Shown piece by piece: positions 4,690 to 62,319 of a stretch of 64,000 bases of DNA. Each line of letters starts with the position of its first letter. Within the stretch, counting starts at the first letter, position 1. Source of the stretch: Pontiella sulfatireligans (GTDB taxonomy: Bacteria; Verrucomicrobiota; Kiritimatiellia; Kiritimatiellales; Pontiellaceae); the NCBI RefSeq assembly GCF_900890705.1, contig NZ_CAAHFH010000001.1, positions 1,798,001 to 1,862,000 of the forward strand, read 5' to 3'. A program made the position numbers and the translations under genes. A model generated the notes under the pieces. That model was not told the origin of the DNA. It saw only the letters and a list, made by a program, of their open reading frames with translations, and did no database searches.

Positions 4690-4872
4690 CCGTACCACTC
4701 CGCTCCTACACTCCAACAACACTTTTGCCTCACAAAAACAACACCATATATCTCACATATATCAACACCAACGCAATACCGGTTCGTCGCCAAATATGCC
4801 CATGATATCACCTTGCCATATTTTGTCTTTTTGATATATCTCTGTTCTACCAATAACCATAAGGCAACCCAC
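4690..4872. promoter_or_regulatory. Divergent intergenic region with an 11-bp-period CATATATC repeat
   Basis: This 183-base, AT-rich gap separates the GH2 gene (minus) from a sulfatase gene (plus), so it must hold promoters for both. CATATATC occurs twice, at 4745-4752 and 4756-4763, exactly 11 bases apart, about 60 bases upstream of the GH2 start. Further AT-rich tracts (TTTTGATATATCTC near 4830) lie nearer the sulfatase. That the repeat is an operator or part of the promoter is inference. Confidence 0.5.
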
Positions 4873-6300
4873 ATGAAAATACTACAGCTCATAGCGACGG
4901 CATGCGTATGCCTCGGAGGAACAACCTCATACTCAGTCGCCAGACCAGCGCATCAAAAGCCCAATATTGTTTTTATCGAAGTCGACGACCTCAACTACAA
5001 ATATTCCGGTCTTGCAGAAAAAAAACTGCTGGAAACGCCCAACATCGACCGTATTGCACAGTCGGGCACCTATTTTAAAAACGCCATGTGCCAAGGCATG
5101 ATGTGCGGGCCGTCGCGCAACTCCCTGATTTCCGGACTGTATCCCCACAGCATGGGCTTCTACCGCAACGGCCAAATGGGTTCTTTTCCAAAGGGAACCT
5201 GGATGTTCCCTCAAGCCTTGCAGAAAGCCGGCTATTTCACATCCTATATCGGCAAGAGCCATATCAAGGGCTATGCCGGCACAAAGGGGGGGCTCGGCCC
5301 CGATTTGGGGTTTGATCATTCGCAGCACACCGCCGGCCGCGCCGTGCTGCTTGGAAAAGCCAAGAAAGGCGGCGCGATTGACGACTGGTATTTCAATTTC
5401 CTGCAGGAAGAAGGCCTGTTCGAAACCTTAGTCGCCGATAGTGAGAACAAACGAAACTCCACCTTGGCGGAAGACGCCTATCTGGACGGGTTCTTCACCA
5501 AAGCCACGCTGGATTTCCTTGATGGCTACAAGGCGAAAAAACCATTCTTCCTGTGGATCAACTATTCCCTGCCCCACGGGCCGCATGACGTCGCCGATAA
5601 ATACCACACCTTTTCAGCCGACGACATGCCGGGCGTCCAGAAAGCAAATTTCACGCCCCCCGAAAAACTGGTTAAGGACACAAAACGCGTTAAGACAGAC
5701 ATGAAGGAAACCCAGGCGGACTACTGCGCGGCCACCACCTTCATGGACCGGCAGGTCGGCCGCGTTCTGGAAAACCTCAAGAAAAACAACATGCTCGAAA
5801 ATACCGTGGTGGTTTTCTTCTCCGACCACGGCATCATGATGGGCGACCACGAACGCATCCACAAAGGCACCCTCTTCCGCCAGATCACCACCCCCTCGCT
5901 GCTGGTTTCGTGGCCCAAGGGATTTAAACAAAACACGGTCGTAAAAACTCCGGTCGAATTGATGGATGTAATTCCCACCGCGCTGGAGCTGGCCGACGGA
6001 TCGCAATTCGACGAACGTAAAATCAATCTTGGCGAAAGCCTGCTTCCCCTGCTGACCGGCAAGGGAACCTACGAACGCAAGCTGGCGTTCGGCGAGGTGG
6101 AAAGCTACGTGGCCGTTTCCGACGGCCGCTACCGCCTGATCCGCGGCGAAGGCCACAACCTGCTGTTCGACGACCTCAACGATCCCGACAACCTGACCGA
6201 GATCTCGGAGCAACATCCTGAAAAAACCGCTGAGCTGGCCAAGGCTGTAGATGAATGGTTAAGCAAAACCGGCCCCGTCATTCCGCCCAAAGGCTTCTAG
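4873..6300 (+). CDS. Type I formylglycine sulfatase (plus strand, divergent)
   Basis: 475 residues from ATG 4873, the first start that gives a signal peptide (MKILQLIATACVCLGG; cleavage near residue 23); the frame is open further upstream but that stretch is not protein-like. VDDLN at 37-41 holds metal ligands; MCGPSR gives formylglycine Cys78, followed by NSLISG. The Lys motif reads GKSHIKG, not the usual GKWHLG, so Trp is replaced by Ser. Late motifs SDHGIMMGDHERIHKGT resemble choline-sulfatase and iduronate-sulfatase-like branches. It is the only cluster enzyme on the plus strand and converges on the next sulfatase with a 158-base gap in which I see no clear terminator. Substrate unknown. 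Confidence 0.9.
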   Translation: MKILQLIATACVCLGGTTSYSVARPAHQKPNIVFIEVDDLNYKYSGLAEKKLLETPNIDRIAQSGTYFKNAMCQGMMCGPSRNSLISGLYPHSMGFYRNGQMGSFPKGTWMFPQALQKAGYFTSYIGKSHIKGYAGTKGGLGPDLGFDHSQHTAGRAVLLGKAKKGGAIDDWYFNFLQEEGLFETLVADSENKRNSTLAEDAYLDGFFTKATLDFLDGYKAKKPFFLWINYSLPHGPHDVADKYHTFSADDMPGVQKANFTPPEKLVKDTKRVKTDMKETQADYCAATTFMDRQVGRVLENLKKNNMLENTVVVFFSDHGIMMGDHERIHKGTLFRQITTPSLLVSWPKGFKQNTVVKTPVELMDVIPTALELADGSQFDERKINLGESLLPLLTGKGTYERKLAFGEVESYVAVSDGRYRLIRGEGHNLLFDDLNDPDNLTEISEQHPEKTAELAKAVDEWLSKTGPVIPPKGF

Positions 6301-6458
6301 CTTTAAATCATGCAGAGTTATGGCCACGAAGAGGCATAAGAACCAAGCTGTCCGGATCTTTGTGCTAAATTGGTCGCTAACCGCTTCCAATTATGTGCCT
6401 TTTCGAGGCTGCCTTTCGTTTATAGGGAGTCTCAGCATTTAACTTCCGAGGTAATAAT

Positions 6459-7973
6459 CTATTGCTTAAAGAATCCTTCCAGCTTTTTTGAGAGCTCGGC
6501 AACGATGCTTTTATATTCCGGATTTTTGGCGAGGTTGACGGTTTCAAGCGGATCGTTCTGATAGTCGTACAACTCGATGGAATCGATTTTGGACGGATCA
6601 AACTTTCCGGTACGACTGACCGCTTCGTCCACCCACGCGACCATGCGGTAGCGTTCGGTGCGCAGGGCGTAGCCCATCAGTTTGACGTGCTCGCGCGGGT
6701 ATTGGCTCATCGCAAAATCCTTCACCTTGGCCTTGGGGTTTTTAAGGATCGGCACGAGGCTGCTTCCCTCCAGGGTTTCAGGGACTGGAAGTCCGGCCAG
6801 CTCGCAGAGGGTGGGATAGATATCGACGAACTCGGTCATCGACTTGGACTTTTCAGCCGTTGGAAATCCGGGAGCAGAGATGATCAGTGGCGCATGGGTG
6901 GCCTGCTCAAAGTTGGAATGCTTGCACCAGAGCCCGTGGTCGCCGAGATGCCAACCGTGGTCGCCCCACAGCACCACGACGGTATTTTTATCGAGCCCGG
7001 TAGCTTTGAGCTTATCGAGCACCCGCCCGATCTGCGCATCGACATATGAAATGCAGGCATAGTAGGCGTGGATAAGTTCGCGTTGCTGATCGTCCGTCAC
7101 GTCGCCCTTTTTCGGCGTACCGGAATAGTTCCGCAACTCGCCCCAGGAGTGGTAGGCATAGTCCGGCGAACCCTTCGCCTGCTCCCGGAACGGAGCGAGA
7201 TCGATTTTTTCGCGATCGTACAAATCCCAGTATTTTTTTGGGGCAACAAAGGGCAGGTGCGGCTTATGGATGCCCAGCGTCAGAAAAAACGGCTGCTTGG
7301 TTTTCGAAAACCCATCCAGCAGTTCGATGCCATAATTGGCGATGGCGCCATCGGCGTAGGCGTCGTCCGGCACATCGAGGCATTCAGTGGCGGGGCGCGC
7401 GTCCTGCGCTTTCAGCCAATCCTTGCGCGGCTTGTAGCCCTTGATTCCCATGGTTTCCAGTTGTTTAAACGCCTGATGGATCGATTTGGCCTGATACTGC
7501 AAATCAGCTGGAACGGCATAGTCCTTATGGTAGGAAAGGTCGGCATCATGGCGAAAGGGAATCGACCAGGAGGGAGGATCTTCGTCCTTCGAACCGTGCA
7601 TCACCTTGCCGCAACCGGCGGAGGCATACCCGTTTTCCTTGAAATATTGCTGCATGGTGACCGCCTCCGGGCAGACCTCGCGCAGGTTGGTTTTTAGATC
7701 CCACACCTTAGTGCTGTCCGGGCGCAGTCCGGTGAACGTGCTCATGCGCGACGGGGCGCATAGCGCCTGCTGGCAATAGTTGTTGAGCATCACCATGCCA
7801 CCCTCCGCGAGGCGATCGATGTTCGGCGTTTTGATCTGCGTCGATCCATAACAGCCCAGTTCGGGTTTCAGATCATCCACGGAAAGGAAAAGAATATTGG
7901 GTTGGGTGGCAGCGTTTACAATCGCTGTTGCGGTTACAGCAACAGCCATCAGCATTAATCGTTTTCTATTCAT
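6459..7973 (-). CDS. Iduronate-2-sulfatase-like type I sulfatase
   Basis: 504 residues with a signal peptide (MNRKRLMLMAVAVTATAIVNA). SVDDLKPELGCYG at 31-43 and WGDHGWHLGDHG with a KHSNFEQATHAPLI stretch are characteristic of the iduronate-2-sulfatase branch. Formylglycine Cys72 lies in CAPSR; the Lys motif is GKVMH. Last gene of a four-gene unit (sulfatase, sulfatase, GH5, sulfatase), 9 bases after the GH5 stop. It is a clear paralogue of the sulfatase at 9051-10619 and of the sulfatase half of the fusion at 23425-27126. In bacteria this branch acts on several 2-O-sulfated sugars, so iduronate as substrate is not implied. Confidence 0.92.
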   Translation of the reverse strand: MNRKRLMLMAVAVTATAIVNAATQPNILFLSVDDLKPELGCYGSTQIKTPNIDRLAEGGMVMLNNYCQQALCAPSRMSTFTGLRPDSTKVWDLKTNLREVCPEAVTMQQYFKENGYASAGCGKVMHGSKDEDPPSWSIPFRHDADLSYHKDYAVPADLQYQAKSIHQAFKQLETMGIKGYKPRKDWLKAQDARPATECLDVPDDAYADGAIANYGIELLDGFSKTKQPFFLTLGIHKPHLPFVAPKKYWDLYDREKIDLAPFREQAKGSPDYAYHSWGELRNYSGTPKKGDVTDDQQRELIHAYYACISYVDAQIGRVLDKLKATGLDKNTVVVLWGDHGWHLGDHGLWCKHSNFEQATHAPLIISAPGFPTAEKSKSMTEFVDIYPTLCELAGLPVPETLEGSSLVPILKNPKAKVKDFAMSQYPREHVKLMGYALRTERYRMVAWVDEAVSRTGKFDPSKIDSIELYDYQNDPLETVNLAKNPEYKSIVAELSKKLEGFFKQ

Positions 7974-7982
7974 GTCTATACC

Positions 7983-9008
7983 TTATTCTTCCGTAATGGT
8001 TCGTGAGTTAGAGCGTTTCTGGCTTTCATCAATCTTATTATCCGGAAGCAGCGCATCCAGCAGCTCCTTCCGCCAAAAATTATTTTCCGAATCATATATT
8101 CCGAAAACACTGTAGAGTTCCCAATAGTTCCAGGATATGCCGTTGGCTTCCGCCTGCTCGCGGATAAATGTGGTCCACTGCCGGCGCGACTCCATGTCCG
8201 CTTTACTGTACGCACCGAACTCTCCGATATTCACAGGAATGGAATGCGTCTTCGACCAAGACACGGCCGCCTTCATCTCCTCTTCCACCATCCGGCGCTC
8301 TTCGGCACTGCCCGTCCACCGAATGCCTAGTGGACGCGGGGCATCCACCCAACGGGCCCCCTGATGCGTGAATTCGTGCGGCTCATAGTAATGAACCGAA
8401 ACAATCAGGTTGTTTGCATCTGGAACTTCCAGATTCCCGAGTTCATCAATACGGTTCCAGCCGATCGGCGCAATCAGAACCGCCCGCTCCGGATTGGTTT
8501 TCCGGATCAGTTGAACCGCTTTATTCTGGAGACCATTCCAGCGCGCCGCGTTCAGTTTTCCGACCGGCTCGTTCAACGGCTCAAAATACAGAGCCAGCGG
8601 ATAGTCTCGATAGTGCTCGGCCAACTGTTTCCAAATGGAAAGAAAGCGCTCTTCGTGCTTCTCAGGATCATCCATGAGTTCACGGTAATGATGCATATTC
8701 ACTATAACCGTCAGATCACGCGACAACGCCTCCTTGATCGCCCGGTCTACCCGATCCTGAAACTCCGGATCGATCCGGTAAGGCGGCTTGGTTCCAGCAT
8801 GATCCGACCACCGCACCGGAATGCGCACCGAGTCAAACCCCGCTGATTTGATCAGATCAAAATGCTCAAGCTTGAGGCGACGGAAACCCTCTTTTTCTTT
8901 GGGGCTTTCAAAGGTGTTTCCAAAATTGATCCCCCGCCCGATTCTGCTGTTCCAATAGAACGCATCACGCGCGCAATCCGCCGACGTTGCCGACTGTAAA
9001 AACCCCAT
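7983..9008 (-). CDS. GH5 endoglycanase-like protein; true start may lie upstream at a non-AUG codon
   Basis: Clan-A TIM barrel: GRGINFGNTFE, SVRIPVRWSDH, VNMHHY, acid/base Glu147 in FEPLNEP, VSVHYYEPHEFTHQG, nucleophile Glu263 in NIGEFGAY, and ISWNYWELY. 341 residues from ATG 9008, which has AGGAG 8 bases upstream. From there, however, only a stub of a signal peptide is made. In the same frame, from ATC at 9047, comes IKTAINILTGVLLMGFLQSATSA, a complete signal peptide with no stop and no AUG, GUG or UUG. Either AUC initiates, or the start codon was mutated and a shortened, perhaps cytoplasmic, product is made. It lies between two sulfatases, the upstream one ending 42 bases before ATG 9008. 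Exact GH5 substrate unclear. Confidence 0.85.
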   Translation of the reverse strand: MGFLQSATSADCARDAFYWNSRIGRGINFGNTFESPKEKEGFRRLKLEHFDLIKSAGFDSVRIPVRWSDHAGTKPPYRIDPEFQDRVDRAIKEALSRDLTVIVNMHHYRELMDDPEKHEERFLSIWKQLAEHYRDYPLALYFEPLNEPVGKLNAARWNGLQNKAVQLIRKTNPERAVLIAPIGWNRIDELGNLEVPDANNLIVSVHYYEPHEFTHQGARWVDAPRPLGIRWTGSAEERRMVEEEMKAAVSWSKTHSIPVNIGEFGAYSKADMESRRQWTTFIREQAEANGISWNYWELYSVFGIYDSENNFWRKELLDALLPDNKIDESQKRSNSRTITEE

Positions 9009-23424: not shown

Positions 23425-26400
23425 CTATTCCGCGACCTCAATCTTAAAGAATTCCTGCCATTTTTCGGTCGGCATCGGTACCGGTGCTGTAATGCCGGTC
23501 TGACGGATTGTCCAGACGCTGTCGGTCAGATTAGAGGACGAGAGAAGGCTATAAGTAACCCCGACCGCTTCCGGCCACGCAATCTGTCCGTTATCGAGTT
23601 CCAATCCACCCAGCGTTTTATTGGCCGGTGCCGCCGGAGGTGTCGACGCTTTTAATCGGTCACACCCGCGGGCTTCGCTCGAGTCTCGCATCGAAATCGA
23701 GAACTGATAGGCCAATCCTTCAAATCCGGGTTCACCAGCCAGATTGATCGTCTCCATTGGGTCCTGCTGATAATCGTAAAGTTCATTGGTGATAACGTTA
23801 CCTGAGGAGCCAATCCACTCCATGTAGCGATAACGATCCGTACGGTAGGCATAACCATAATTACCGCTTCCGTAATGGCTGACGATGCCGGTCTGGACTT
23901 CCGCGGAATCATCCGTAATAACCGGAACCAAACTGCGCCCGGACAGTGGCCGTGGAAGCGGATCCACGGAGTTCGGCGGCTGTACCGGTTCTGGAAGCCC
24001 CGCGAGATCGCACAAGGTCGGGAATATATCCAGCAGACCGACCGGTGTCGTCGATGTTTTACCCTGAGCATATCCCGGCGCGCTGATGATGAACGGAACG
24101 CGGGTCGCCTGTTCGAGATTGGTGTGTTTTCCCCACTCGTTATGGTCGCCCAGATGGAATCCGTGGTCGCCCCACAGCACGATGACGGTGTTGCTGGAGA
24201 GCCCTAGAATATCCAGCTCGTCGAGTATGCGACCGACCTGCTCATCAACGTGTGAAATGCAGGCATAATAACCGTGCAGCAGAAGTTTCTGCTGATCCTC
24301 CGGAAGAATTCCGGAGGTGATTTTCAGGGCATCGCCTCCACCATCAGTTTCCAGATAATAGTTGCTGCGCATCTCGGTTATGCTGTTTAAAGAATAGCCG
24401 GTGGCATTGGCCATTTCGTACGGGAAAGGGTGCGGGATAAAATCATTCCGGTCATACAGGTCCCAGCTGGATTTCGGCGAAAGGAACGGCAGATGCGGTT
24501 TTTTGAAGCCGACTCCGAGGAAGAACGGCTGATTGGTTGCCAGGGCATTCATCATTTCGATTCCCTTCGTCGCCGCAACGCCGTCCGTAAAGTTGCTGGC
24601 GGGCTGATTGACACTTTCCGAAGCCAGTGTCAGGTCTTTATCAAGAACCGCATTATAGGCTTTGCTGCTGCTGACGCTGCCGCCTGAGTTTTGGAATTGA
24701 TGCGACCAGGATAGCGGATCGTCCACAGAACCGCCGTCTTCGTTGATGGTGCCGTCCGGATTCATGGAGCCGACACAGCGGTAGTCGTTGATTTTTCCAG
24801 TGGCGGCCGTAGTGTAGCCATAGTCAATAAAATGCTGGGGAATGGTGACAACATTGGTGACACCACGGGTATTGTCGCGCTCCCCATTTGCGCTGAGGCC
24901 GCGCATTTTATTAAAGCCCATCACGCCGGTCTGCTCCGGCATCAGGCCGGTCATCAGACTGGCACGGCTCGGGCCGCAGACCGCCCATTGGCAATGAGCG
25001 TTCAGGAAGGTGGTTCCCCGGGTTGCCAACCGATCCATATTGGGGGTCTGAATCAGATCGTTCCCATACGCGCTGACGATCGGGTTCATATCGTCAATGG
25101 CGATAAACAGGACATTCGGTTTTGGATCGCTAACAACCGGCTCCATAATGGCAACCACATTAGTCGCAAAATCAGCAGCTCCCAGCTCCGTAAAATGCAC
25201 CGTTGTGTTCATCGTATACGAAGCATCAGACGAGGAAATCGAGTCGCCGTCCACCAGGTAAAGCTGCTCATCGCCGGCGGCAATTCGTGCATTCACCACA
25301 TCGCTCACAGCCTGCCGAACGTCTCCTGCGGTGACCCCGCTTCCAGGATCATCCACAACCGTTGTGGCAACGAGCGTACAACAGAAAATCTCCGCGTCCG
25401 GCTGCCGCAACCGCACCGTTGAAAGTAGCGCTTCATAGTCAGCCGTCAGCTCAGAAACCGTCTTCCCTCCCTGCCAGTCGTTATATCCAATCAAAATCCA
25501 GATGGCTTCGACTGGATCGAAATCCTCTAGCAAATCAGCCACATCCGGAGCCATTTTACCCCCGCCAACCGCCAGATTGAACAGTTCCATATCCAGCGCC
25601 TCAGCCACTTGATAGGGATAGCCTGCAGCGGTCGTGCTCTGCCCGGTCCCATGCGAAATGGAATCGCCCAGGAACACGACCTGTTTGTTTTCAAACGGGT
25701 TCCCCGCTTCGAGCACCTCGCCGGCCTTCACCTCCACTTTGGAAAGGATCGGATTTGCCCAATTGGGAAAAACGACATCATGACGAACTAATTCCCCCGG
25801 AGCACTTGCACTCACGAGCTCCACAACAAACGGAATCGCACTGGAAACCGGGTTCTCTAATGAGACATGCGCCGGAGTCGAAACATACGTCCCATTCTGG
25901 TACGTCGTGAATTTAGACGAGTTCCGATATTCATCCCCCACCCCATAATCAAATGTCAACTTTACGGTATCACTGCGAGTGTAGAGGGTGAGCTTGACCC
26001 CGGAGGTGGTTTTAGCTTTGACTGGGCTCACATTCGAATACGTATTATCAAAATCAAACCGATGGAAATTCATTCCGTTTGCATCGATATCTAAATATTT
26101 CGCCCCCTGAACATAGAGATTGGCAGAAGTCAGCGGCACCTCAACAAACTGCGGGATAGCCACATTGATCTCCAGCGTGGCCGAATTGGTTACGCCCTTG
26201 CCGTCGGTCACATAGACCGTCCAACTGTTCAGTCCCTCTGTCGACGGCGAGGTTCCGGTCAGGGCACCGTTACTTGCAACATTCAACCAGACAGGGCCGC
26301 CTTCTGCCCAAAACGTCATCGTGTCGTCATCCAGATCGGTGGCATAATCCGTCAATGACGCATTGCAGCTCGTGTCGGGTGAAACAGAAGGAGCCGCCAC

Positions 26401-27126
26401 CGGATCAGAATCGAACTCTGAAGCACGATTACCGACGGGAGCATCCTCCGTAAAAGCCATTCCTCCCAAAACGATCTGATTCGAATCATCATCGGGAATG
26501 ACGTAACTGCTGGTAAAACCGGAGGTGCTGGTAAAAACCCCGTCTCCCACTCCGAACTTGCCGACTCTTTCAATGTCATTCGCGATGGCCTTCGTGGAGA
26601 ATACATTATAGGAAGCGTACCCCTCCACATAGACACCTTGCGCAATCACGGTGCCGAAATTGTAGACCAGATCCAGCGATGAAATGGCGGCATCATTAGC
26701 AGATTCCAGCAAGACAGGATCCGTCAGCAGTTTAATACTTTTAGCCGCGTCAGACCTCAGCTGATAAACCCCGATGGCGATGTGCCCACTCGCATCATGC
26801 CCATAGTCCAGCGTCACGGTCCCGCTGGACATTGCGGTTCCATACCAATACTGGACTGCGGCACCGGCAGACGCGTTTCCCTCGTCTGTCCACGCGAGCC
26901 CTGCTGTGCCGCTCAGCTCCAAATTGGAGGAGGTGCGGATTTCACTATTATTGCCCGATCCCATGACGGCAATCACATCGCCAATTCCCACAGAAAATGT
27001 GGCGATATTGTTGTTGGCGGGACTATAAGTGCTGTACGTCGCGGAATCCACAACCAAAACATCCGCATGAAGCGTGCTTACCGAAAATAATAATACCATC
27101 AGGGTACTTAATGCATTACGTATCAT
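23425..27126 (-). CDS. Bifunctional SGNH esterase - type I sulfatase fusion
   Basis: 1233 residues, signal peptide 1-21. About 22-225: an unnamed beta-rich domain that recurs inside the GH10 at 27431. About 240-320: putative Ig/cadherin-like domain (DDDTMTFWAEGGPVWLNVAS). About 325-465: beta domain of the type preceding SGNH hydrolases. About 473-660: SGNH hydrolase with VVFLGDSISHGTG (Ser near 482), GGGKM, IGYND and TTVHFTELGAADF (His near 644). About 670-1150: iduronate-2-sulfatase-like sulfatase with AIDDMNP, formylglycine Cys717 in CGPSRASLMTG, GKINDYRC and WGDHGFHLGDH. The tail resembles half of the C-terminal module seen on other proteins here. One chain could remove an acyl group and a sulfate from the same sugar. 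First gene of its transcript. Confidence 0.9.
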   Translation of the reverse strand: MIRNALSTLMVLLFSVSTLHADVLVVDSATYSTYSPANNNIATFSVGIGDVIAVMGSGNNSEIRTSSNLELSGTAGLAWTDEGNASAGAAVQYWYGTAMSSGTVTLDYGHDASGHIAIGVYQLRSDAAKSIKLLTDPVLLESANDAAISSLDLVYNFGTVIAQGVYVEGYASYNVFSTKAIANDIERVGKFGVGDGVFTSTSGFTSSYVIPDDDSNQIVLGGMAFTEDAPVGNRASEFDSDPVAAPSVSPDTSCNASLTDYATDLDDDTMTFWAEGGPVWLNVASNGALTGTSPSTEGLNSWTVYVTDGKGVTNSATLEINVAIPQFVEVPLTSANLYVQGAKYLDIDANGMNFHRFDFDNTYSNVSPVKAKTTSGVKLTLYTRSDTVKLTFDYGVGDEYRNSSKFTTYQNGTYVSTPAHVSLENPVSSAIPFVVELVSASAPGELVRHDVVFPNWANPILSKVEVKAGEVLEAGNPFENKQVVFLGDSISHGTGQSTTAAGYPYQVAEALDMELFNLAVGGGKMAPDVADLLEDFDPVEAIWILIGYNDWQGGKTVSELTADYEALLSTVRLRQPDAEIFCCTLVATTVVDDPGSGVTAGDVRQAVSDVVNARIAAGDEQLYLVDGDSISSSDASYTMNTTVHFTELGAADFATNVVAIMEPVVSDPKPNVLFIAIDDMNPIVSAYGNDLIQTPNMDRLATRGTTFLNAHCQWAVCGPSRASLMTGLMPEQTGVMGFNKMRGLSANGERDNTRGVTNVVTIPQHFIDYGYTTAATGKINDYRCVGSMNPDGTINEDGGSVDDPLSWSHQFQNSGGSVSSSKAYNAVLDKDLTLASESVNQPASNFTDGVAATKGIEMMNALATNQPFFLGVGFKKPHLPFLSPKSSWDLYDRNDFIPHPFPYEMANATGYSLNSITEMRSNYYLETDGGGDALKITSGILPEDQQKLLLHGYYACISHVDEQVGRILDELDILGLSSNTVIVLWGDHGFHLGDHNEWGKHTNLEQATRVPFIISAPGYAQGKTSTTPVGLLDIFPTLCDLAGLPEPVQPPNSVDPLPRPLSGRSLVPVITDDSAEVQTGIVSHYGSGNYGYAYRTDRYRYMEWIGSSGNVITNELYDYQQDPMETINLAGEPGFEGLAYQFSISMRDSSEARGCDRLKASTPPAAPANKTLGGLELDNGQIAWPEAVGVTYSLLSSSNLTDSVWTIRQTGITAPVPMPTEKWQEFFKIEVAE

Positions 27127-27430: not shown

Positions 27431-30400
27431 TTACGGTGTGAAGGTGATGTTCAAGCGAATAAACGCTTCCGTTTCCGTCAGCGGCACCCGGTTCGTTGCC
27501 GACTCAAATCCCGTCACCGGGCCAGCCCCCCGTCCGACAACCTCAACGTCGTTGGTGCTCCACACACCACTGACCAGGTTGGAGTTCGACTCAACCGCAT
27601 AGCTCAGGCCGCGGGCCGCAGCTTCCGTAACACCCCATTCAACATGGATATACTGCAGATAACTTCCCTCGATCGACTCAACCGGAAGATTGGCCGCCCC
27701 GCCGATGGCATATGTAACGAGATTGTTCACGCCGTCCCCATTGGCATCTTCGAGCAGGTTGGTATTTGAACCGTGTCCCTGATCCGCCAGCCAATCGCTG
27801 TATAGCGATGAGGGGTTGTCCGAAATTGGATTAAGCCGGGCAATCTGGATATTGTCGATATCCATGTAATCGCCAGGTTGCCAGAGATTGCCGCCGTTCA
27901 GGGCCTGGAACTGCACACGAAACTGCTCAAAGCTGAATCCGGCATGCAGCGCCATCTCACCGGGCAGATGTTCGACTTCCGCTCCGCCCCCCAGCGTGGT
28001 GTAGGCCCGGAAAGAACCGAGCGCACCCGTGTTATCAAAATCGTAGACCAAACGAATATGCAGATTGCTTAGAGAAGTCGTACCGTTGACAACCAAGCTA
28101 CTTGTAGCACCACCGGTTCCTGTGCCGGCGGTGAGACTTAGGTTGAACACCTGGTTCTGATAGCGCAGAAGAGCCCGGTTGTCCTTGTCGCCGAGAGTCA
28201 CGTCACGGATCCCGAATCCACCTTGGGCGAACGCCGTGTTGGTAAACGCATAGCTGTTACTGAAATCAGCGGCCACCACATCCCAACTCACTTGGATCAT
28301 GCCGTTGCTGATGCCAAGATAAGATGCACCCGTTTTCCCAACAAAGAACCCCTCATCGGCCACTCCTGTCGCGGCGAAACGAGCCATTTCATTGATCACA
28401 GAGCCCATTGCCCCCCCGCCCAGAGTGTCCCCATTCACGGAACTTTCCGTACCAGCGGTGTCCAGGGCGACGCCATCGGCTGCTCCGGTGAAGGCCCATG
28501 TATCCAACTCTTCGACGGCGAGTGGGTTCAGATCAACATCATCGAGCATCACCACCGTGGTCTGGTTGCTGAGTAGTGTGTATTCGACGGGATAATCTTT
28601 GCCGTCATAATGGACGGTGATGTCGTAGTCGCCCTTGAAGCCGCGAACCGATGTTTCGCCAGCGGCGTCGGCTGTGGCAGACTCCTCGGTAACGTAACGA
28701 ATGCGATGGAGGTAGTACCAGACCAGCCCGTTCAACTTGATGGTTCCATCATAGCTACACATGGCCCAGTCTTCCACGGTCATGTAGGTCCAGGCCGTCA
28801 ACCCCGCGACCAGCGGATGACTGAAATAAGTAGTCAACGTCTCTTCCGTAATCTGCGCACGCAACGTTTCATCTACAGGGAACGTGTCTTTCGCGCGAAT
28901 CTCAAACTCCGTTCCAACCATTGGAAGACCATACCGGTCTCCAAAGTCATCCAGACGGTCATAAATCACATCCGGATCGAGATAGCCACGCGTCATGCGA
29001 CTCTGGAATCCGATCCGGGAGAGCGGAGCGTCGTTGGCTTGAAGGATATCGAGATGACTCATCATCGTGTCGCGGCGGCTGGTATATCCCGTTGGGTTTA
29101 TGGAAACCGGTTCCGCAGAGATTATGCCATATTCGTTCAATAAATATCGGCATTCCGGCAGGACGGCATTATTGGCCCCAATTTTGAACCATTCGGCCAT
29201 CTGGTCCCAGCCAATCAGATCCTGAATGCGGTGATTATCGCGAGTTTCGTTAATGACGTCCCACTCGTAGACCGGCCATAGCGAGGCCCATTCTGAGATG
29301 TCGGCTTGGATCTGGTCTTTCAGTTCTTGTTGCAGTGCCGGCTCGGCCAACTTGGCTTCTTGCTCACCCACCACGCGGGCATTCGCAAAAGCCAGGCCGC
29401 ATACCGCCGTATTTCCAGAACTATCGTGCGTCCAGATGCTTTCGAGTGCGGACACATTATTAAAATAAGAGTGAGCCGACTTTCTCTTCGAGTTCACCAG
29501 CACCCATTCGGCCGATGCGGGATAGATTCCGGCTACATAGGTGGAAACCCCCTCCAGCAAAATACCCGAGGAAGTTCCGGCAAAGCTATACGAATTGGTC
29601 AACCCGGACACATCGGACTGACTCGATGTAACAATATCCAGCAAACTGATGGCTCCGCCGTCGGGACGAAGGTGATAGACCACCACGCTTGAATAAGCGG
29701 CCTCCCTTGAAATATCCACCTGAACCGTTCCATCCGCCAGCACATCGGAAATCCAATAGCCGACACTCGGCCCGGTTCCCTTGGCGCGATCAAATAGGAT
29801 CGACGAAACAGATGCCGTCCCACTGAAGGTCACATTGGTTTCAAGCGGTTCCGTCCCGACATTGGAGCTCCAAAGTACCACCACCGTATCCCCGGCGAGC
29901 GCATCAACGGTTGCAATCACTTCATTGGTAACAGCTGCCGTACCGTACTGCTTAGATAAATAGACATGATCCCAAAGCGTTTCAAGGGCCACCACTTTTT
30001 CCGTCACAGCGGGGGTCATATGGGTTCCGCCCGGCCACATGAGCAAATGCCCGCGAACCGGCATATTGATGCGTTGCGCCCAATCAAAGAATCCCGGCAA
30101 ATAGGCCTCAAACCCGCTTCGGAGTTTCTGCTTCAGTCCGTTGTTCAACCCCACGCCATTGTAGAGTTTTTGAAATATTTCCTGATAGCGGTTGGTGCTG
30201 ATTCCTTGGAGATTATTGTCGGAATCGGTCAAGTCTCTTACCCGCAACACCCCCGAAAAGTGAAAGTCGTGGTCCTTGAGTTTCACGTCAACCTGCGCGC
30301 CCTCGATCGAGACCCCGTTGACATCGACCACCTGGATATCGAGATCGGCTTTACGGTGTTGTTCAATCCGAGCCTCCGCGTCGACACGCCATTGCGGCAC

Positions 30401-30568
30401 GACATCCGGCTTGACCAGGTCGGCAATTTGCTGTTGCTCGGCGGGCGTCAGCACCACACCCAGATCATCCGCATACTGCTGCACTTCTTCCGGTGTAAGC
30501 GTTGCCGCCTGAACCGCAAGAGAACCCAAAATAGATAGTGTTACGATAAGATACCGGACGATGTTCAT
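27431..30568 (-). CDS. GH10 xylanase-like protein with a domain inserted in the catalytic barrel
   Basis: 1045 residues, signal peptide 1-21. GH10 signals: FHFSGVLRVRD, RGHLLMWPG at 172-180, acid/base Glu441 in WDVINETRD, nucleophile Glu554 in MVGTEFEI, AGLTAWTYMTVEDW. The two Glu are 113 apart as expected, but RGH to WDVINE spans about 265 residues where ordinary GH10 enzymes need about 50; roughly residues 190-400 are an insertion homologous to the N-terminal domain of the 23425 fusion (VGYWISDVLADGTVQVD, YHLRPDGGAISLL). About 690-930 is a beta-sandwich shared with the 30689 protein, then a DANGDGVNNL calcium-type repeat and the common C-terminal module. Expected to cut beta-1,4-xylan or a related backbone. 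Separated from the upstream gene by a terminator. Confidence 0.9.
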   Translation of the reverse strand: MNIVRYLIVTLSILGSLAVQAATLTPEEVQQYADDLGVVLTPAEQQQIADLVKPDVVPQWRVDAEARIEQHRKADLDIQVVDVNGVSIEGAQVDVKLKDHDFHFSGVLRVRDLTDSDNNLQGISTNRYQEIFQKLYNGVGLNNGLKQKLRSGFEAYLPGFFDWAQRINMPVRGHLLMWPGGTHMTPAVTEKVVALETLWDHVYLSKQYGTAAVTNEVIATVDALAGDTVVVLWSSNVGTEPLETNVTFSGTASVSSILFDRAKGTGPSVGYWISDVLADGTVQVDISREAAYSSVVVYHLRPDGGAISLLDIVTSSQSDVSGLTNSYSFAGTSSGILLEGVSTYVAGIYPASAEWVLVNSKRKSAHSYFNNVSALESIWTHDSSGNTAVCGLAFANARVVGEQEAKLAEPALQQELKDQIQADISEWASLWPVYEWDVINETRDNHRIQDLIGWDQMAEWFKIGANNAVLPECRYLLNEYGIISAEPVSINPTGYTSRRDTMMSHLDILQANDAPLSRIGFQSRMTRGYLDPDVIYDRLDDFGDRYGLPMVGTEFEIRAKDTFPVDETLRAQITEETLTTYFSHPLVAGLTAWTYMTVEDWAMCSYDGTIKLNGLVWYYLHRIRYVTEESATADAAGETSVRGFKGDYDITVHYDGKDYPVEYTLLSNQTTVVMLDDVDLNPLAVEELDTWAFTGAADGVALDTAGTESSVNGDTLGGGAMGSVINEMARFAATGVADEGFFVGKTGASYLGISNGMIQVSWDVVAADFSNSYAFTNTAFAQGGFGIRDVTLGDKDNRALLRYQNQVFNLSLTAGTGTGGATSSLVVNGTTSLSNLHIRLVYDFDNTGALGSFRAYTTLGGGAEVEHLPGEMALHAGFSFEQFRVQFQALNGGNLWQPGDYMDIDNIQIARLNPISDNPSSLYSDWLADQGHGSNTNLLEDANGDGVNNLVTYAIGGAANLPVESIEGSYLQYIHVEWGVTEAAARGLSYAVESNSNLVSGVWSTNDVEVVGRGAGPVTGFESATNRVPLTETEAFIRLNITFTP

Positions 30569-30688: not shown

Positions 30689-32563
30689 TTACGGGGTAAA
30701 TGTAATGTTCAGACAAAGAAACTTCACATCAACATCTGTTTCAACCCGATTCGTTACCGCGTTATAACCAGATACGGCCGATGCACCGCTTCCAACAAAC
30801 TCGATACCCGTTGTGGTCCAGTTCGTGTTCACCAAATCCGTTCCCACGTTAAGGATAGAGGACAGTCCACGATCCGCCGCATCATCACGCTCGAAATAGA
30901 CATACTCGAGGTAGTTGGTTCCGCCCTCGCTCATCTGCGATTCTACCGGGGTATTACCCTGGTCAGCAGGATTATCCGGTGCACCACCGAAAGCATACTC
31001 GCTCAGGTTATCGAGCAGATCACCATCCGCATCATCGGTCAAATTAGTGTCTGCCCCCACCGTGTAATCAGCCAGCCAGGATTCATAGGCTTCTTCCGGT
31101 GTTTGATCACCCGTCGCAGGATTCAACTTAGCAAGCGTTATGTTATCCATCTGCATCGTGTCGCCCGCCTGCAGATAGTTTCCTCCATTGATGGTTTGGA
31201 ACTGCTGACGGAACTCACCGATCGTCTGTCCTGCATATACGCCTTCGACCGCTGCGGTTTGTTCTGCTCCTGCACCAATGGTGTAAAAGACACTATAGGT
31301 TCCAAGATCCATGTCCAAAACCTGACGAACATTAATGACATCACTCGCAACGGTTCCATCTTCCAACACAACCGTTGTGTTGCCACCTGTACCTGTGACC
31401 GTCAGCACAAATTGGTCAGTAGCACCAGAATAACGAGCCAGTGTGCTCAGGTCGTGGTCAGATCCGTCATTAAAACGGAATCCGAAACCTGCCTGAGCCG
31501 ACGTGTTACTCGCCGCGGTATTCACCATGTCCCACGTCGTCATGTCAAAGGACACTTGATAGACACCCGTCGTAGCACCCGCATAGGAAGCATGCGTGAA
31601 GCCCTTAAAAGCCGCTCCGGTTCCCGCAGCGAACAAGTTGACGGTTTCACCTTGGATATCGACACCTTTTGCCACGGCACCACCCAGTGTAGACCCGGTT
31701 CCTGTGGAACTAGGCACGGTACCCACAGCAGCGCCGTCCACTCCCCCGGTGAGGTCCCAGCTCTCGAGCAGTTCAACTTCTGGCGGTGGCGCCGGTGGGC
31801 CCGGCTGGAAGGTTTCAATCGTCCACTGGTCGATTTCCACAGTACATTCAGGCTCGAAGTCTTTGTACATCATGCCAATCCGGATTTTATCCAGCTCAAC
31901 AAAATTCGTCTGATTAGTGTTGGTCAATCCAAACGCACCATCCACGGCGCCAAGCTGCCAAATTGTATCCACGCCTTCGCGCAGGTAATAGGTTGAATAG
32001 GTGTCGGTCTCCAGATCAATGTCCATTCGCAATTGAATCCCCGTCCAACCGAGCGCGGTCATATTCAGATTGGTGTCTGAGCTGATTTCAATCGTCGTCT
32101 GCAAATCATCTCCATACACGGTATCCGCTTTCATCTGCACTTGATTCCCCGGGCCCCCCACCTTCAGGTAGAGGAAGGCCATCTTGGAACCGTCCCCGAT
32201 TCCAACGCCGATGCCTGAGTTATAGGTCGTCTCTGCATCAAAGTTAAAATCATTAAACCGAACCGTGGACCGCAGGATTGTATTGGACGTCCCCGCGTAA
32301 AACGTAGACCCTAACGCAGCATAGGCCGAGGTATTCGCCGGCGCCATATTGCTCCAGACCAGTGAACTCCCATCCGTTGCGCCATAGGCTTCCATTACGG
32401 AGTTGGGACTAAACGTCCCGGTTCCGCCAGCGCCATCGCTAACCCCATCGAGCGTCGTGCCTGCTGTCTCATTAAACGTAATGTCATTGACGACCGATGT
32501 CTGCGCGGATGCACTTATCGCCGCCGTCATGAGCGCCATTGTAATCCCAATAAACTTCTTCAT
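30689..32563 (-). CDS. Secreted double beta-sandwich protein, no catalytic domain recognised
   Basis: 624 residues from ATG 32563, preferred over ATG 32575 because GAGGTTAG lies 8 bases upstream and MKKFIGITMALMTAAISASA is a clean signal. Residues about 22-255 form a concanavalin/LamG-like beta-sandwich (FNDFNFDAETTYNSGIGVGI), then a PGPPAPPP linker, then a second sandwich (about 262-470) homologous to the one in the GH10 protein (GEFRQQFQTINGGNYLQAGD). DADGDLLDNLSEYAFGG near 514 and the common C-terminal module close the chain. No enzymatic motif is visible; a carbohydrate-binding or surface-attachment role is a guess. It follows the GH29-NodB gene by 102 bases and ends in a strong terminator. 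Confidence 0.8.
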   Translation of the reverse strand: MKKFIGITMALMTAAISASAQTSVVNDITFNETAGTTLDGVSDGAGGTGTFSPNSVMEAYGATDGSSLVWSNMAPANTSAYAALGSTFYAGTSNTILRSTVRFNDFNFDAETTYNSGIGVGIGDGSKMAFLYLKVGGPGNQVQMKADTVYGDDLQTTIEISSDTNLNMTALGWTGIQLRMDIDLETDTYSTYYLREGVDTIWQLGAVDGAFGLTNTNQTNFVELDKIRIGMMYKDFEPECTVEIDQWTIETFQPGPPAPPPEVELLESWDLTGGVDGAAVGTVPSSTGTGSTLGGAVAKGVDIQGETVNLFAAGTGAAFKGFTHASYAGATTGVYQVSFDMTTWDMVNTAASNTSAQAGFGFRFNDGSDHDLSTLARYSGATDQFVLTVTGTGGNTTVVLEDGTVASDVINVRQVLDMDLGTYSVFYTIGAGAEQTAAVEGVYAGQTIGEFRQQFQTINGGNYLQAGDTMQMDNITLAKLNPATGDQTPEEAYESWLADYTVGADTNLTDDADGDLLDNLSEYAFGGAPDNPADQGNTPVESQMSEGGTNYLEYVYFERDDAADRGLSSILNVGTDLVNTNWTTTGIEFVGSGASAVSGYNAVTNRVETDVDVKFLCLNITFTP

Positions 32564-32665
32564 AGCTAACCTCATGTTATATGTCTTTCACTCACACCAT
32601 CCCGCAGTCCACTGCAGAACAACAATTCATCAACAAATACTGATTTATCTCATATACTCAAAAAC

Positions 32666-34264
32666 TTACTCCCGGCCGGTTACCACATCCGCCACGTTGA
32701 CCGCACCGCGCAGTCGCTTGGACGATGAGGTTGCAAATAGTTCCCGCACCGTGACGGATGTAAACTTCTTCGTTTTCAGCTCAGCCAGGACAGCATCGAG
32801 TTCAGCCAATGTTTTTACTTCAAGAATGGCTCCCGGAGCCAATGCGTCCGAAGGTTCTACTGCCGTGAGCCCCAGATAATTGAGTACCGGCCAGGTAAAG
32901 TCATCGTATTCATATTCGGGTGCCCGGAATACGACCGGTGATTGGGTGGTGCGCAGTTGCTTCTGAACGGAATCGACCTCATTGCGTACCAGACGGGCAT
33001 TGGTTTTTCCGGTGATAACGGAGGATTCTTTTGAACCGTTTCCGAGTTCATGACCAGCCGTTACGAGTTCACGAAGCAATGCTTTCTCTTTTTTGGCAGA
33101 CGCTTCATTTACGAAAAAGGTTCCTCGACATTGCGCAGCTTCCAGACGCGCTGCCGCAGTTTTCAGATTGTCAGGACTCCAGTCTGGCGCAAAGATAAGG
33201 GAGACCTGATTGCCTTCAACGGCAACCTTCGATACTGGTCCCCGTGTAATATCGTACAGCTCGCTGTCGGCATGCGACACTTCGGCCGGATCCCACATTT
33301 CGCCTACCTGCTTCAGCACCGCAACGGTTTCAGGATGCAATACCCCGGTTTTTTCCGGCGCACAGTTCAGTAGCAGGTTGGCATTGCGATCGTTCAGCGG
33401 ACGCAGCAGTTTGTTTACGATATAGTCCGCATTCCGCACCGGAACACAGGGCGCTTCCGGATTGGCAAACCAGCCGTTGTTCAGCTTATCGCATACTTCG
33501 GTCGCCACAGTGTTATCAGGAGCAGGCAGCTCAAGCGAATACGGATACTCGTACCCGAACAGATCTGAGTCTTCCATGCTGCTGGAATTATTAGCGATAA
33601 CCAGGCAGTTCGGCTGTAAGGAATGAATATGCGCTTTAATCCGGCGCCATGCACCTGGCGTCATCCCGCCTTTGTCGGTACCACTCTGATCGATCCAAAC
33701 CAAGTCGACATCACCATAGTTTGTAAGCAGTTCCGAGAAATGAGTTTTAACCATCCCTTCGGCATCAATGGTTCCGGTTGCGTAATCTTCATGCGGCAGC
33801 GTCTGATAGTTTTTCCACTGATCCCCACCCCACAGCGGGAAGCAATAGTAGAAACCGACCTTCAGGCCGCGGGAACGGAATGCATCAACATATTCCTGAA
33901 CGACATCTGCTTTTCCATCTTTATAGTTCTTGAACCAGGTCACATCACGATCGGATGTGGCGGTATCCCACAGGCACCAGCCGCCGGTATGCTTAACCGT
34001 CAATACAGCATATTTCATTTTTGCTGCAACCGCCGCATCGGCCCACTGGCCGAAATCGAGGTTATCCGGATTAAACAGCAGCGGATCCTCCTGACCGCTG
34101 GACCAACCGCCCGGCACAAACGTCGACATGTTAAAATGCATAAACATGCCAAACTTCCAGCTCAGAAACTCGTCTTGCAGTGCATTTAGGTCACGCGCGT
34201 CAACACGGGAACCCATTCCCGAGAAAACACCTGCCAGCAATATGCATATCAACCTAGACATCAT
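32666..34264 (-). CDS. GH29 fused to a degenerate NodB/polysaccharide-deacetylase-like domain
   Basis: 532 residues, signal peptide about 1-23. Residues 24-340 are GH29 of the shorter kind: SWKFGMFMHFNMSTF, KYAVLTVKHTGGWCLWDT, GLKVGFYYCFPLW, predicted nucleophile Asp192 in VWIDQSG (WID, not WFD), and NLLLNCAPEKTG. From about 354 the sequence follows the NodB fold: strand VSLIFAPDW, AAQCRGTFFVN, VTAGHELGNGSKESS, VVFRAPEYEY. The first motif lacks the TFDDG Asp pair and the HxxxH zinc ligands are replaced (GHELGNGS), while RxPxY is partly kept, so deacetylase activity looks lost. Gene order is sulfatase, GH29, then this gene, with a 14-base gap before it. Confidence 0.82.
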   Translation of the reverse strand: MMSRLICILLAGVFSGMGSRVDARDLNALQDEFLSWKFGMFMHFNMSTFVPGGWSSGQEDPLLFNPDNLDFGQWADAAVAAKMKYAVLTVKHTGGWCLWDTATSDRDVTWFKNYKDGKADVVQEYVDAFRSRGLKVGFYYCFPLWGGDQWKNYQTLPHEDYATGTIDAEGMVKTHFSELLTNYGDVDLVWIDQSGTDKGGMTPGAWRRIKAHIHSLQPNCLVIANNSSSMEDSDLFGYEYPYSLELPAPDNTVATEVCDKLNNGWFANPEAPCVPVRNADYIVNKLLRPLNDRNANLLLNCAPEKTGVLHPETVAVLKQVGEMWDPAEVSHADSELYDITRGPVSKVAVEGNQVSLIFAPDWSPDNLKTAAARLEAAQCRGTFFVNEASAKKEKALLRELVTAGHELGNGSKESSVITGKTNARLVRNEVDSVQKQLRTTQSPVVFRAPEYEYDDFTWPVLNYLGLTAVEPSDALAPGAILEVKTLAELDAVLAELKTKKFTSVTVRELFATSSSKRLRGAVNVADVVTGRE

Positions 34265-39155: not shown

Positions 39156-39216
39156 GGTAAGATGGGGTCGTTCCAAAGCCCTTTTGCCACACGCAAAAAA
39201 TGCATCGGAGGACCCC

Positions 39217-40689
39217 ATGAAAAATGATCTATGGAAACTGCTTCGCTGGGTATGCCGCAGGCTCACGTACAACGATCTGGCTTCGGTGGTGCCAGTACTG
39301 CTTGAAGTACTCAACGGATCAAGGCAAGACATCGAACTCAAACCACAGGAGGTGCGGCCTCCGCACTACCGGCAGTTCCGGGTCGATCCGACCCCTCCGC
39401 TATGCGATCCCCGGCCAGCGCCCGAACCACAAAAGGACTGGGAAGAAATACGGGGCGATCACCTCCGGGCAACGGGAAAAACAATCGCCATTGTGAAACG
39501 GAAAAAGGGAGCGCCAACACCGCCTGAGAAATGCCGTTGCCAGCACTGCCATGCCCCCGTGCGATATCTCTACCTCAACAACGGAAAACTAGGGTCGCAG
39601 GTGAAATGTAAAATCTGCAAAGGAACCTCGCCAACCGACAAGCCCCGACGCGAAAGCAAGGCGCGCTACTGGTGTCCGCACTGCGGCTACGCTCTCTTCA
39701 AATGGAAAGAGGATGGCCTGTGCACCGCCTTCAAGTGCCCGAACGACCATTGCCCTGTCTACGAGCGCAACCTCGCCGAACTCACGCCCGAAGAGCGCGC
39801 CATGCGCAAGGCCGGAAGCACCAGCCAGTTCAAACTGCGATACCTCTTCAGGGAATATCACTTCGCGTCGGAAAAGCTTCCGCTCAAGCGCCCCGAAGAC
39901 GCCCCGGTCGACCTCAACCGCATCCACCACAGCCTGCATACCCTCGGGCTCTGCCTCACCTTCTCCATTAGTCTCGGACTCAGTGCCCGGCTCACCGCCC
40001 AGGCACTCGAGCGCGTCTTCGGCATCTGCATCTCACACCAAACCGTCATCAACTATATCAAAGCCGCGGCCTGCCAGCTCGCCGACTTCACCGATGAAAA
40101 CAGCCCCGTTCCCGAAGGAACCTGCGCGGCGGACGAAACCTATATCAAGGTCGGCGGAAAGACCCGCTACACCTGGCTCGTCATCACCGAAACGCGCCGC
40201 GCCATCTGCGGCTACAACCTCTCTGAAACACGAGGGGCCGAACCTGCGCTCGGACTGATCCAAAGCATGTGCGGCCCGCCGGACGCGCCCAGAGCAAAAG
40301 CCTTCGAACTCGTCACCGACGGCCTGCCCTCCTACGACAGCGCCACCATCGCCTACAACACCGCCGCCATCAAAGAAGGCGGAGAAGCGATCTTGAACAA
40401 ACGCACCGTCATCGGACTCAAGAACCTCGATCCCGAAAGCGAAGCCTACCGCGTCTACAAGCAACTCATCGAACGGCTCAACCGCACTTACAAATACCAC
40501 ACACGACCACGGGCCGGGGTCAAGGAGTTCGATGGAGCCGCGGCACTAACCACGCTCTTCGTCACCTACTACAACTTCATGCGACCGCACGGCAGCCTCG
40601 GCGGGCATGCGCCCGTCGCGCTCGCCTGCCTCAAAGGCAAACGGCTCTACCCCGACATGTGGGTCGAGCTGCTTCGGCAAGCCGCATAA
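39217..40689 (+). CDS. DDE transposase with N-terminal zinc-finger region
   Basis: 490 residues from ATG 39217 (GGAGG 6 bases upstream). The first half has several CxxC pairs (CRCQHCHAP, CKICKG, YWCPHCGY, KCPNDHCPVY), likely zinc-binding DNA-recognition modules. The catalytic domain has Asp306 in CAADETYIKVGGK, Asp368 in LVTDGLPSYDS and Glu419 in LIERLNRTYKYHTR, followed by VTYYNFMRPHGSL, typical of IS6-like rve/DDE transposases. The gene fills the element between its inverted repeats and is on the strand opposite to its neighbours. Exact IS family should be set by comparison with curated elements. Confidence 0.9.
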   Translation: MKNDLWKLLRWVCRRLTYNDLASVVPVLLEVLNGSRQDIELKPQEVRPPHYRQFRVDPTPPLCDPRPAPEPQKDWEEIRGDHLRATGKTIAIVKRKKGAPTPPEKCRCQHCHAPVRYLYLNNGKLGSQVKCKICKGTSPTDKPRRESKARYWCPHCGYALFKWKEDGLCTAFKCPNDHCPVYERNLAELTPEERAMRKAGSTSQFKLRYLFREYHFASEKLPLKRPEDAPVDLNRIHHSLHTLGLCLTFSISLGLSARLTAQALERVFGICISHQTVINYIKAAACQLADFTDENSPVPEGTCAADETYIKVGGKTRYTWLVITETRRAICGYNLSETRGAEPALGLIQSMCGPPDAPRAKAFELVTDGLPSYDSATIAYNTAAIKEGGEAILNKRTVIGLKNLDPESEAYRVYKQLIERLNRTYKYHTRPRAGVKEFDGAAALTTLFVTYYNFMRPHGSLGGHAPVALACLKGKRLYPDMWVELLRQAA

Positions 40690-61900: not shown

Positions 61901-62319
61901 AAGTGAATGGTGATATCTTCGTCATCGCCAGAATCCAACGCATTGGTTGCTGCAGCGGTCAATCCGATATCAAAAAAGTCATGGGCACCCCCCAAAAGGG
62001 CGATATTGGTTCCGGGACTTGCGGTTGTGGACAATGAAAAATCCATCACGCCTACCCATTCGTCATCTTCCGCATTTCCAAGGGTTGCAGGATGATAGAC
62101 ATAATTCCCATTGGTCATATCGAAACTGCCGGCATAAGGCGCGGTATCCGCCACCCCGCCGCTCATATAGAAGGCCTCTGCGCCGGTTTCCGGCATCGAT
62201 GTCCAAGCCGAGTTCAATGTAATATTTCCCTCTGTATAGTCAGAGAAGTCTGTATTAATCAAACCTGATGCTCCGGATATCATTCCCGCACATAGTATAA
62301 TTGGTAACAACCGCTTCAT
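58963..62319 (-). CDS. Large secreted protein with tandem LamG-like and fibronectin type III units
   Basis: 1118 residues; signal about 1-19; very strong GGAGGAGAGAAC ribosome site. Two units repeat: a beta-sandwich (about 20-275: EDDEWVGVMDFSLSTTASPG; about 375-665: VGDEWTGSITFQLKAPATPG) each followed by an FN3 domain (SWTASLEATSYQVFRSTT; TWQAALEASSYNVYKALD). Another beta domain spans about 775-1000, then a calcium-type repeat (ADPDNDGVVNVHEWG) and the common C-terminal module ending VTNLIPIDLDVKFIGLQITE. No catalytic motif. Similar proteins are often surface or matrix components; here it may bind or hold the polysaccharide. Own promoter and terminator. Confidence 0.82.
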   Translation of the reverse strand: MKRLLPIILCAGMISGASGLINTDFSDYTEGNITLNSAWTSMPETGAEAFYMSGGVADTAPYAGSFDMTNGNYVYHPATLGNAEDDEWVGVMDFSLSTTASPGTNIALLGGAHDFFDIGLTAAATNALDSGDDEDITIHLRYKNNGNTQVTLSKRGNYQTLGELSDEAIGWDPQLLDTNNVTADFETDPLSLTWTLRKTRIADTYSAVAVLSNKNTGAFSVFDPSININTMVKSNAYDAVSMTLAMGHDRDADDGGTAPLIDIAIDSMSVDQTSGNAPVLESPVLTANGGNNLVDLSWTASLEATSYQVFRSTTSGSFLDPAIGTTNGTSFVDTTALNNTTYYYFVRASATGATDADSAEVSAEPQSAATGLIVDTDFSASDAPAYADGNIDGQNRWKDASLGTSPVFAITDAAGSGFADSEAYTNNFDNTLANDVYYNTIMSNNVGDEWTGSITFQLKAPATPGQEVISTFDVYDESGTNVVGSFTGTNDVAGLSGGELFKFGLTADPDSGLDNADKNDIFFYVRTQASGRIDLTFNQSNNTRILEAARDVAGWDPNWENDGNDATNGPDAVTDPITINWTIRKSSITNTYTAVAEMIIGSYTNATTVQDAYNGSTDAYGADFMYFGMGIGEDADQGKSDQGTGTAIPTSVKSVAIDSFSLIKADDVQPTPVAPIVFGEGGNFSAILTWQAALEASSYNVYKALDIDGPYGLLTNIAELDYTDSDGLSNGTTYFYKVASVYPTVPAEALSDIVPVRPLAVIVKGWGPTGLAVTADVNGDEATDISIPVSSDAILFREASWYHGLLTYDTNAVPPLASISQIFKQSTDLDVDYQNWRIDQTAPLDYIRLRTKKADAGSTLSVLCWFEEIQDFSGVVASYSAEVEDSTGWGGGALHAAIRNGSIWYISQTSISDKVPLVISDISEELWTTLTLATATTTNMMTVVGNSFGTAPAFNDIQAVGYFSELGIYVHVESFGVSAGEQPTSLQLWTDGFNIYNADAEANADPDNDGVVNVHEWGTMGDPSDPADNGKQDLMLGVDETGTNLVYVYPRLDSEPRPVYTVLDTDNLVYIPFSEATDAVEDGAGPWNPNNPGLGLDAVTNLIPIDLDVKFIGLQITE

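Follow-up and report, generated by a model that had tools for sequence, protein, structure and literature searches.

A shared all-beta module interrupts a GH10 barrel and heads an esterase-sulfatase fusion in Pontiella sulfatireligans

Introduction

Carbohydrate-binding modules set inside the catalytic barrel are described in the Xyn10C-type GH10 xylanases of Bacteroidota. In these enzymes CBM4, CBM22 or unclassified modules stand in the loop between beta3 and alpha3, a loop found to be accommodating to insertions, and enzymes of the Xyn10C-like cluster are active although they lack the minus-two Glu (PMC7848910). In one such enzyme, Pm25, the inserted CBMs are xylan binders that aid the enzyme on insoluble polysaccharides and work independently of the GH10 module (PMC7848910). 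A second described system is found in marine Bacteroidetes, where sulfated xylans are the predicted target of loci whose GH10 contains a sulfatase domain (PMC6794258) and xylose-rich substrates have been named for such loci (PMC6298971). Strains of Pontiella degrade sulfated polysaccharides (PMC10880615), while P. sulfatireligans F21 is reported not to grow on xylan, its genetic potential to do so being granted (PMC7356697).

Here we describe a GH10 protein of P. sulfatireligans encoded in a stretch of 64,000 nucleotides (the window; all coordinates without a locus name are positions in it). The protein shares with Pm25, BACOVA_04390, BACINT_04215 and BXY_29300 both the beta3-alpha3 interruption and the absence of the minus-two Glu. 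However, whereas the Xyn10C-type enzymes carry one to three CBMs (4, 22 or unclassified) and lie mostly in SusC/SusD loci of Bacteroidota, the window GH10 carries a single module without a Pfam match and belongs to Kiritimatiellota, with no SusC or SusD among the 24 window ORFs scanned. Of the two named insert families of Xyn10C-like enzymes, CBM4 and CBM22, Pfam assigns neither to any of 15 copies of the module described here. XynA (7d88), a GH10 without an insert, has 37 residues between its two aligned pieces and shows Q-G-H and the minus-two Glu where the window GH10 has Q-S-R and Asn.

Results

The interrupted GH10 protein

The gene is organized as follows.

27431..30568, minus strand: GH10 protein with inserted module, 1045 aa
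29975..30508, minus strand: N-terminal extension, then the GH10 barrel as far as the helix that follows beta3 (RGHLLMW), aa 21-198 (alignments, model)
29357..29974, minus strand: module inserted in the beta3-alpha3 loop, approximately aa 199-404 (lacking in nine of the 11 loop-spanning subfamily members; own fold; profile match)
28529..29356, minus strand: remainder of the GH10 barrel with the beta strands that follow, aa 405-680 (Pfam 407-602, model)
29246..29248, minus strand: E441 in WDVINE, putative acid/base (invariant in 11/11 subfamily rows)
28907..28909, minus strand: E554 in GTEFE, putative nucleophile (invariant in 11/11 subfamily rows)
27434..28516, minus strand: C-terminal region, LamG-like by eye, common to neighbouring proteins (blastp)

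The Pfam profile and the predicted barrel fold both place this protein in GH10, as does the pair of glutamates, E441 and E554, whose roles as acid/base and nucleophile we take to be those known from GH10 enzymes. Glyco_hydro_10 is the sole Pfam family of the 1045-residue protein (E 6.2e-14, best stretch 407-602), no second one appearing at E up to 1, and all 50 listed matches of a structural search with the model of the GH10 part are GH10 xylanases. The N-terminus is signal-like by eye. The C-terminal region has no Pfam match and is 40% identical over 380 columns to the product of 30689-32575 (blastp, E 2.2e-61).

Between RGHLLMWPG and WDVINE the original prediction counted about 265 residues, and the distance from RGH (172) to WDVINE (436) is indeed 264. 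The value of about 50 that it gave for a normal gap holds for 10 of 11 GH10 rows compared (46-52 residues) but is too low for the nine uninterrupted members of the enzyme's own subfamily, where the gap is 55-83. Alignments and the model agree that the interrupted loop is that between beta3 and alpha3, on the catalytic face of GH10-type barrels, so the insertion does lie in a loop by the active site, as had been proposed. The model of the GH10 part (pLDDT 77.5, pTM 0.76; five models span 68-77.5) sets the insert between beta3 (residues 151-153) and alpha3 (382-408), with pLDDT below 50 at 291-372, in the second half of the insert, where the alignment is two rows deep.

Homology of the insert to the N-terminus of the fusion protein

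The gene next to the GH10 encodes a fusion protein with a second copy of the module.

23425-27126: GDSL esterase-sulfatase fusion, 1233 residues
26443..27066, minus strand: second module copy at the N-terminus of the fusion, aa 21-228 (blastp, profile)
26161..26400, minus strand: He_PIG Ig-like domain, aa 243-322 (Pfam E 5.5e-7)
25177..25674, minus strand: GDSL esterase domain, aa 485-650 (Pfam E 5.1e-16)
23689..25119, minus strand: sulfatase domain, aa 670-1043, with SGSH_C to 1146 (Pfam Sulfatase E 6e-38)

Residues 1-240 of the fusion have no Pfam name. The reported alignment of the insert with this N-terminus is recovered by blastp of the whole proteins (E 8e-10, 27% over 212 columns); YWISDVLADGTVQVD at GH10 residue 271 has its counterpart in the fusion at 93, and VYHLRPDGGAISLL at residue 297 has its counterpart at 120. 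The Smith-Waterman score of insert against fusion is 158, and none of 1000 shuffles scored as high (mean 39, maximum 87). A profile made solely from the N-terminal copies of six sulfatases, hence free of inserts, matches GH10 206-396 at 54.8 bits, compared with at most 7.7 bits for 200 shuffled GH10s; when all 13 other module copies enter the profile, the GH10 scores 120.6 bits and the best shuffled GH10 6.8. Comparison of profiles by hhalign, two inserts against the six sulfatase copies, gave a probability of 99.15 and an E-value of 3.6e-19 over 193 columns. The 0/1000 shuffles and the 200 shuffled GH10s rule out chance or composition as the source of the similarity, and the profile homology bears out the earlier claim that one module is used both as an N-terminal domain and as an insertion.

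The copies in the two adjoining genes are old relatives rather than sisters. The fusion's copy is 67% identical to that in a fusion of a related genome (G017), and the insert is closest to its counterpart in another Pontiella GH10 (39% over 189 columns). Recent copying of the fusion N-terminus into the adjoining GH10 is disfavoured by the module tree.

Fold and family search

Modelled alone, the inserted module is a confident all-beta domain, a beta-sandwich, of about 200 residues (pLDDT 87.4, pTM 0.87). None of the 15 module copies has a CBM model in Pfam (E up to 10) or NCBIfam; Pfam does not hold every CAZy CBM family. As for a known family, only scattered matches were obtained, each to one copy among the 15, the best being PA14 at E 0.0075 in Pfam and others at E 0.18 in NCBIfam and E 0.039 in PHROGs. 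The lone sequence match in the PDB, 3fkq (an NtrC-like two-domain protein; E 0.0048, 80 profile columns), was taken as chance. In the fold search of the PDB by Foldseek no match fell below E 0.001: the top one is 5iku, a collagen-binding domain pair (E 1.0e-3, TM 0.29), followed by double-jelly-roll phage coat proteins, with TM 0.34 or less among the 50 listed. The modular xylanase Xyn30D ranks 49 (E 0.08). In a further listing of 50 fold matches, most VIA rows span half of the module and no CBM title occurs, an absence that is uninformative taken alone.

Predicted viral structures gave longer matches. For 50 of 722 BFVD matches at E up to 0.001, TM by query length is 0.46-0.68 over 204-258 columns, and 9 of the 50 listed are named minor tail protein, the comparison being one of predicted with predicted structures. 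The models thus point to a fold shared, over the whole module, with a domain of phage minor tail proteins. One of these, which BFVD names a minor tail protein, is A5YJY9 from Mycobacterium phage Tweety; it resembles the module in fold over its full length, but its sequence-profile similarity to the module is not significant (hhalign E 0.14, probability 0.4%), though the alignment is in the same register as the fold match; tblastn of the module against phages gave one match, at E 6. Phage minor tail proteins are often adhesion proteins. As the predicted structures compared were viral ones, the matches to phage proteins may simply represent a broader family of folds. Among the matches listed in our literature searches (Kiritimatiellota GH10, sulfatase and modules; GH10 domain insertion), none names the module.

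Insertion history and unusual motifs of the GH10 subfamily

Among 11 subfamily members that span the loop, two carry the insert and nine are uninterrupted; the insert is also missing from a Rubritalea protein whose best segment is 45% identical. The two inserted GH10s form one clade in the gene tree (96/93) and their inserts one clade in the module tree (96/98), a test that rests on two rows and is equalled by 31 and 40 of 500 label shuffles. From these sequences a single insertion event in a small GH10 lineage is most likely. Between the two inserted genes the insert is 39% identical over 189 columns, against 57% over 441 columns for the rest of the enzyme.

The subfamily has W-P-G after beta3 in 11 of 11 members and, also in all 11, Q-x-R where 7d88 has Q-G-H. 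Its minus-two position is occupied by Asn in eight members, Asp in two and Gly in one, and never by Glu. For comparison, 11 GH10 ORF rows from genomes of relatives (15 loci tried) comprise six with Q-G-H or Q-C-H, four with Q-S-R or Q-N-R, one of which (the long ORF of locus L028) is also within the subfamily set of 11, and one with no match. The His replaced by Arg corresponds to H205 of Cex, which lies close to the nucleophile; the mutant 2his is among the structural matches of the GH10 model. As a guess, an Arg at this place might suit a sulfated substrate; judged by sequence, Q-x-R together with the missing minus-two Glu makes a change of substrate possible.

Distribution of the module and its linkage to GH10

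A single-protein search found four module copies in the source genome, and a 15-row profile (A2) found seven. Among 97 genomes of relatives the same profile matched 29 times, in 10 genomes, and 25 of these matches have E below 1e-17. A 9-row profile (A1) matched 6 of 387 genomes of the phylum, four of them in the order of Pontiella and the other two weakly (1.1e-4, 7.4e-4), suggesting that the module belongs mainly to Pontiella and another genus of its order.

With profile A2 at E up to 0.01, 19 sources (the window and the loci) yielded 28 ORF rows, four of which derive from broken copies on a single contig, L068. Sulfatase accompanies the module in 14 of the 28 rows (five by Pfam, nine by motif only) and GH10 in four (three by Pfam, one by motif), two of the latter having a sulfatase as well. 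The module heads sulfatases, stands between domains, or follows a LamG-like region (LamG-like by eye). One of the double proteins lies just past the window in the same genome (L028:9184-14439, minus strand; 1752 aa) and joins subfamily GH10, He_PIG and sulfatase, by Pfam, with the module at 880-1083; the other, in genome G017 (L029:12857-18370, minus strand; 1838 aa), joins the module to subfamily GH10 and sulfatase domains that were read by motif. Both resemble the GH10-sulfatase proteins of marine Bacteroidetes in having the two enzyme domains in one protein, but in both the module and He_PIG stand between GH10 and sulfatase, and neither is mentioned for the Bacteroidetes proteins in the excerpt used here (PMC6794258). 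Other module proteins, such as those of L002 and L003, have no Pfam domain; the C-terminal parts of these two match that of the window GH10 (35% over 135 and 49% over 194 columns, respectively).

Several other module ORFs were observed in the survey. In L068 (genome G010) two module copies, each spread over two overlapping frames, precede sulfatase ORFs (3124-3510, 3459-6869, 6620-7318, 7074-8165), as a result of either a frameshift or an assembly error. L070:9868-10674 and L069:9449-10501 encode 269 and 351 residues with little beyond the module and a PEP-type C-terminal motif, and lie 9.5 and 3.3 kb from subfamily GH10s. L063:2860-7470 encodes 1537 residues with the module near the N-terminus, Nidogen-like and TSP3 matches and no enzyme domain by Pfam.

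Module and subfamily GH10 are linked in the genomes. Eighteen of the 29 module matches lie within 15 kb of a subfamily GH10, where 0.4 would be expected by uniform placement; this count uses a distance picked after the data were seen and GH10s sought in 58 of the 97 genomes, treats tandem module copies, which are not independent, as separate, and includes four modules in the same gene as the GH10 and two linked to a hand-added GH10 fragment (G003 contig 67) that falls short of the E cut-off. Conversely, 11 of 14 subfamily GH10 matches have a module within 15 kb. The linkage supports a shared substrate.

Discussion

The reading that we favour, by a modest margin over doubt, is that this portable beta-sandwich module is an accessory domain of carbohydrate-binding type on enzymes that act on a sulfated, probably xylose-containing, polysaccharide, and that it was inserted in one GH10 lineage. 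There it would sit in the beta3-alpha3 loop beside the substrate cleft, leaving the barrel unbroken, and would hold the polymer at the enzyme, much as CBM4 and CBM22 do in the same loop of Xyn10C-type xylanases. A carbohydrate-binding role, its ligand and a possible effect on catalysis are inferred from the company that the module keeps: its linkage to GH10s and sulfatases and the presence of Bacteroidota CBMs in the same loop are consistent with substrate binding. What the original prediction said of a shared module in two placements, its all-beta fold and its beta3-alpha3 site stands, but no match to a known CBM was found in Pfam or NCBIfam, and position by itself does not imply the substrate binding near the cleft that it suggested, because the inserted CBM4s of the precedent act independently of the GH10 module. 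A place by the cleft is not required either, because nine of the 11 subfamily members lack the insert, and in two of these nine (L028, L029) the module stands further along in the same protein. The missing CBM model, the weak PDB fold matches and the faster divergence of the insert all count against a binding function.

Should the module instead be ligand-free and serve as a structural spacer or for stability, in the manner of the He_PIG domains that adjoin it, its insertion would have been tolerated and neutral. Such a role would fit its places before or between catalytic domains and beside He_PIG domains, an insert that diverges faster than the barrel, and a GH10 loop that is accommodating to insertions (PMC7848910). 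We nevertheless think it unlikely, though to be taken seriously, since the insert persists in two species whose enzymes otherwise differ at 43% of positions and the module is concentrated near one enzyme subfamily, as a general spacer need not be. Rather improbable, in our judgment, is a protein-protein or cell-surface docking domain that unites the products of one locus (GH10, sulfatases, LamG-like proteins): the module does occur on several proteins of one locus and its fold is like that of predicted phage proteins, 9 of the 50 listed being named minor tail protein, but a separate C-terminal region of the GH10 is already common to its neighbours. That the interrupted GH10 is decayed or inactive, as Arg for the 7d88 His in Q-x-H (11/11) and the missing minus-two Glu might suggest, is very improbable, since both features are common to inserted and uninterrupted members, both catalytic Glu residues are invariant in 11/11, and Xyn10C-like enzymes are active without the minus-two Glu (PMC7848910).

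An extension of the carbohydrate-binding reading, which we put forward as doubtful speculation, sees in the module the founder of a new carbohydrate-binding family that shares its fold with phage minor tail domains and is specific for a sulfated, xylose-rich algal polysaccharide. The Arg-for-His GH10 subfamily, whose Arg would fit a sulfated substrate, would have captured it once, as an independent Kiritimatiellota counterpart of the Xyn10C design. The architectural idea, a binding module in the beta3-alpha3 loop, is known; the part and the phylum are new. Our comparison suggests that this GH10 loop is apparently used in two phyla for different cleft-side modules, so that the value of the position can be tested by comparing them. 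The unnamed module family can also serve to flag gene clusters in which GH10s and sulfatases occur together, and the clusters so marked belong to bacteria known for sulfated algal polysaccharides and not for growth on plain xylan.

Other features of the window

The window has a G+C content of 53.3%. A sulfatase domain was found in eight of the 24 ORFs scanned and an alpha-L-fucosidase domain in six, together with GH2, GH5, GH8, a rhamnosidase-type domain and esterases; the source, a marine bacterium, probably lives on sulfated seaweed sugars. At 32666-34264 an alpha-L-fucosidase domain (64-322) is fused to a polysaccharide deacetylase domain (352-469) in a protein of 532 aa. A plus-strand ORF at 39184-40689, transposase-like by eye, lies amid the minus-strand enzyme cluster, and the ORF at 58963-62319 encodes 1118 aa without a Pfam match at E up to 1e-4.
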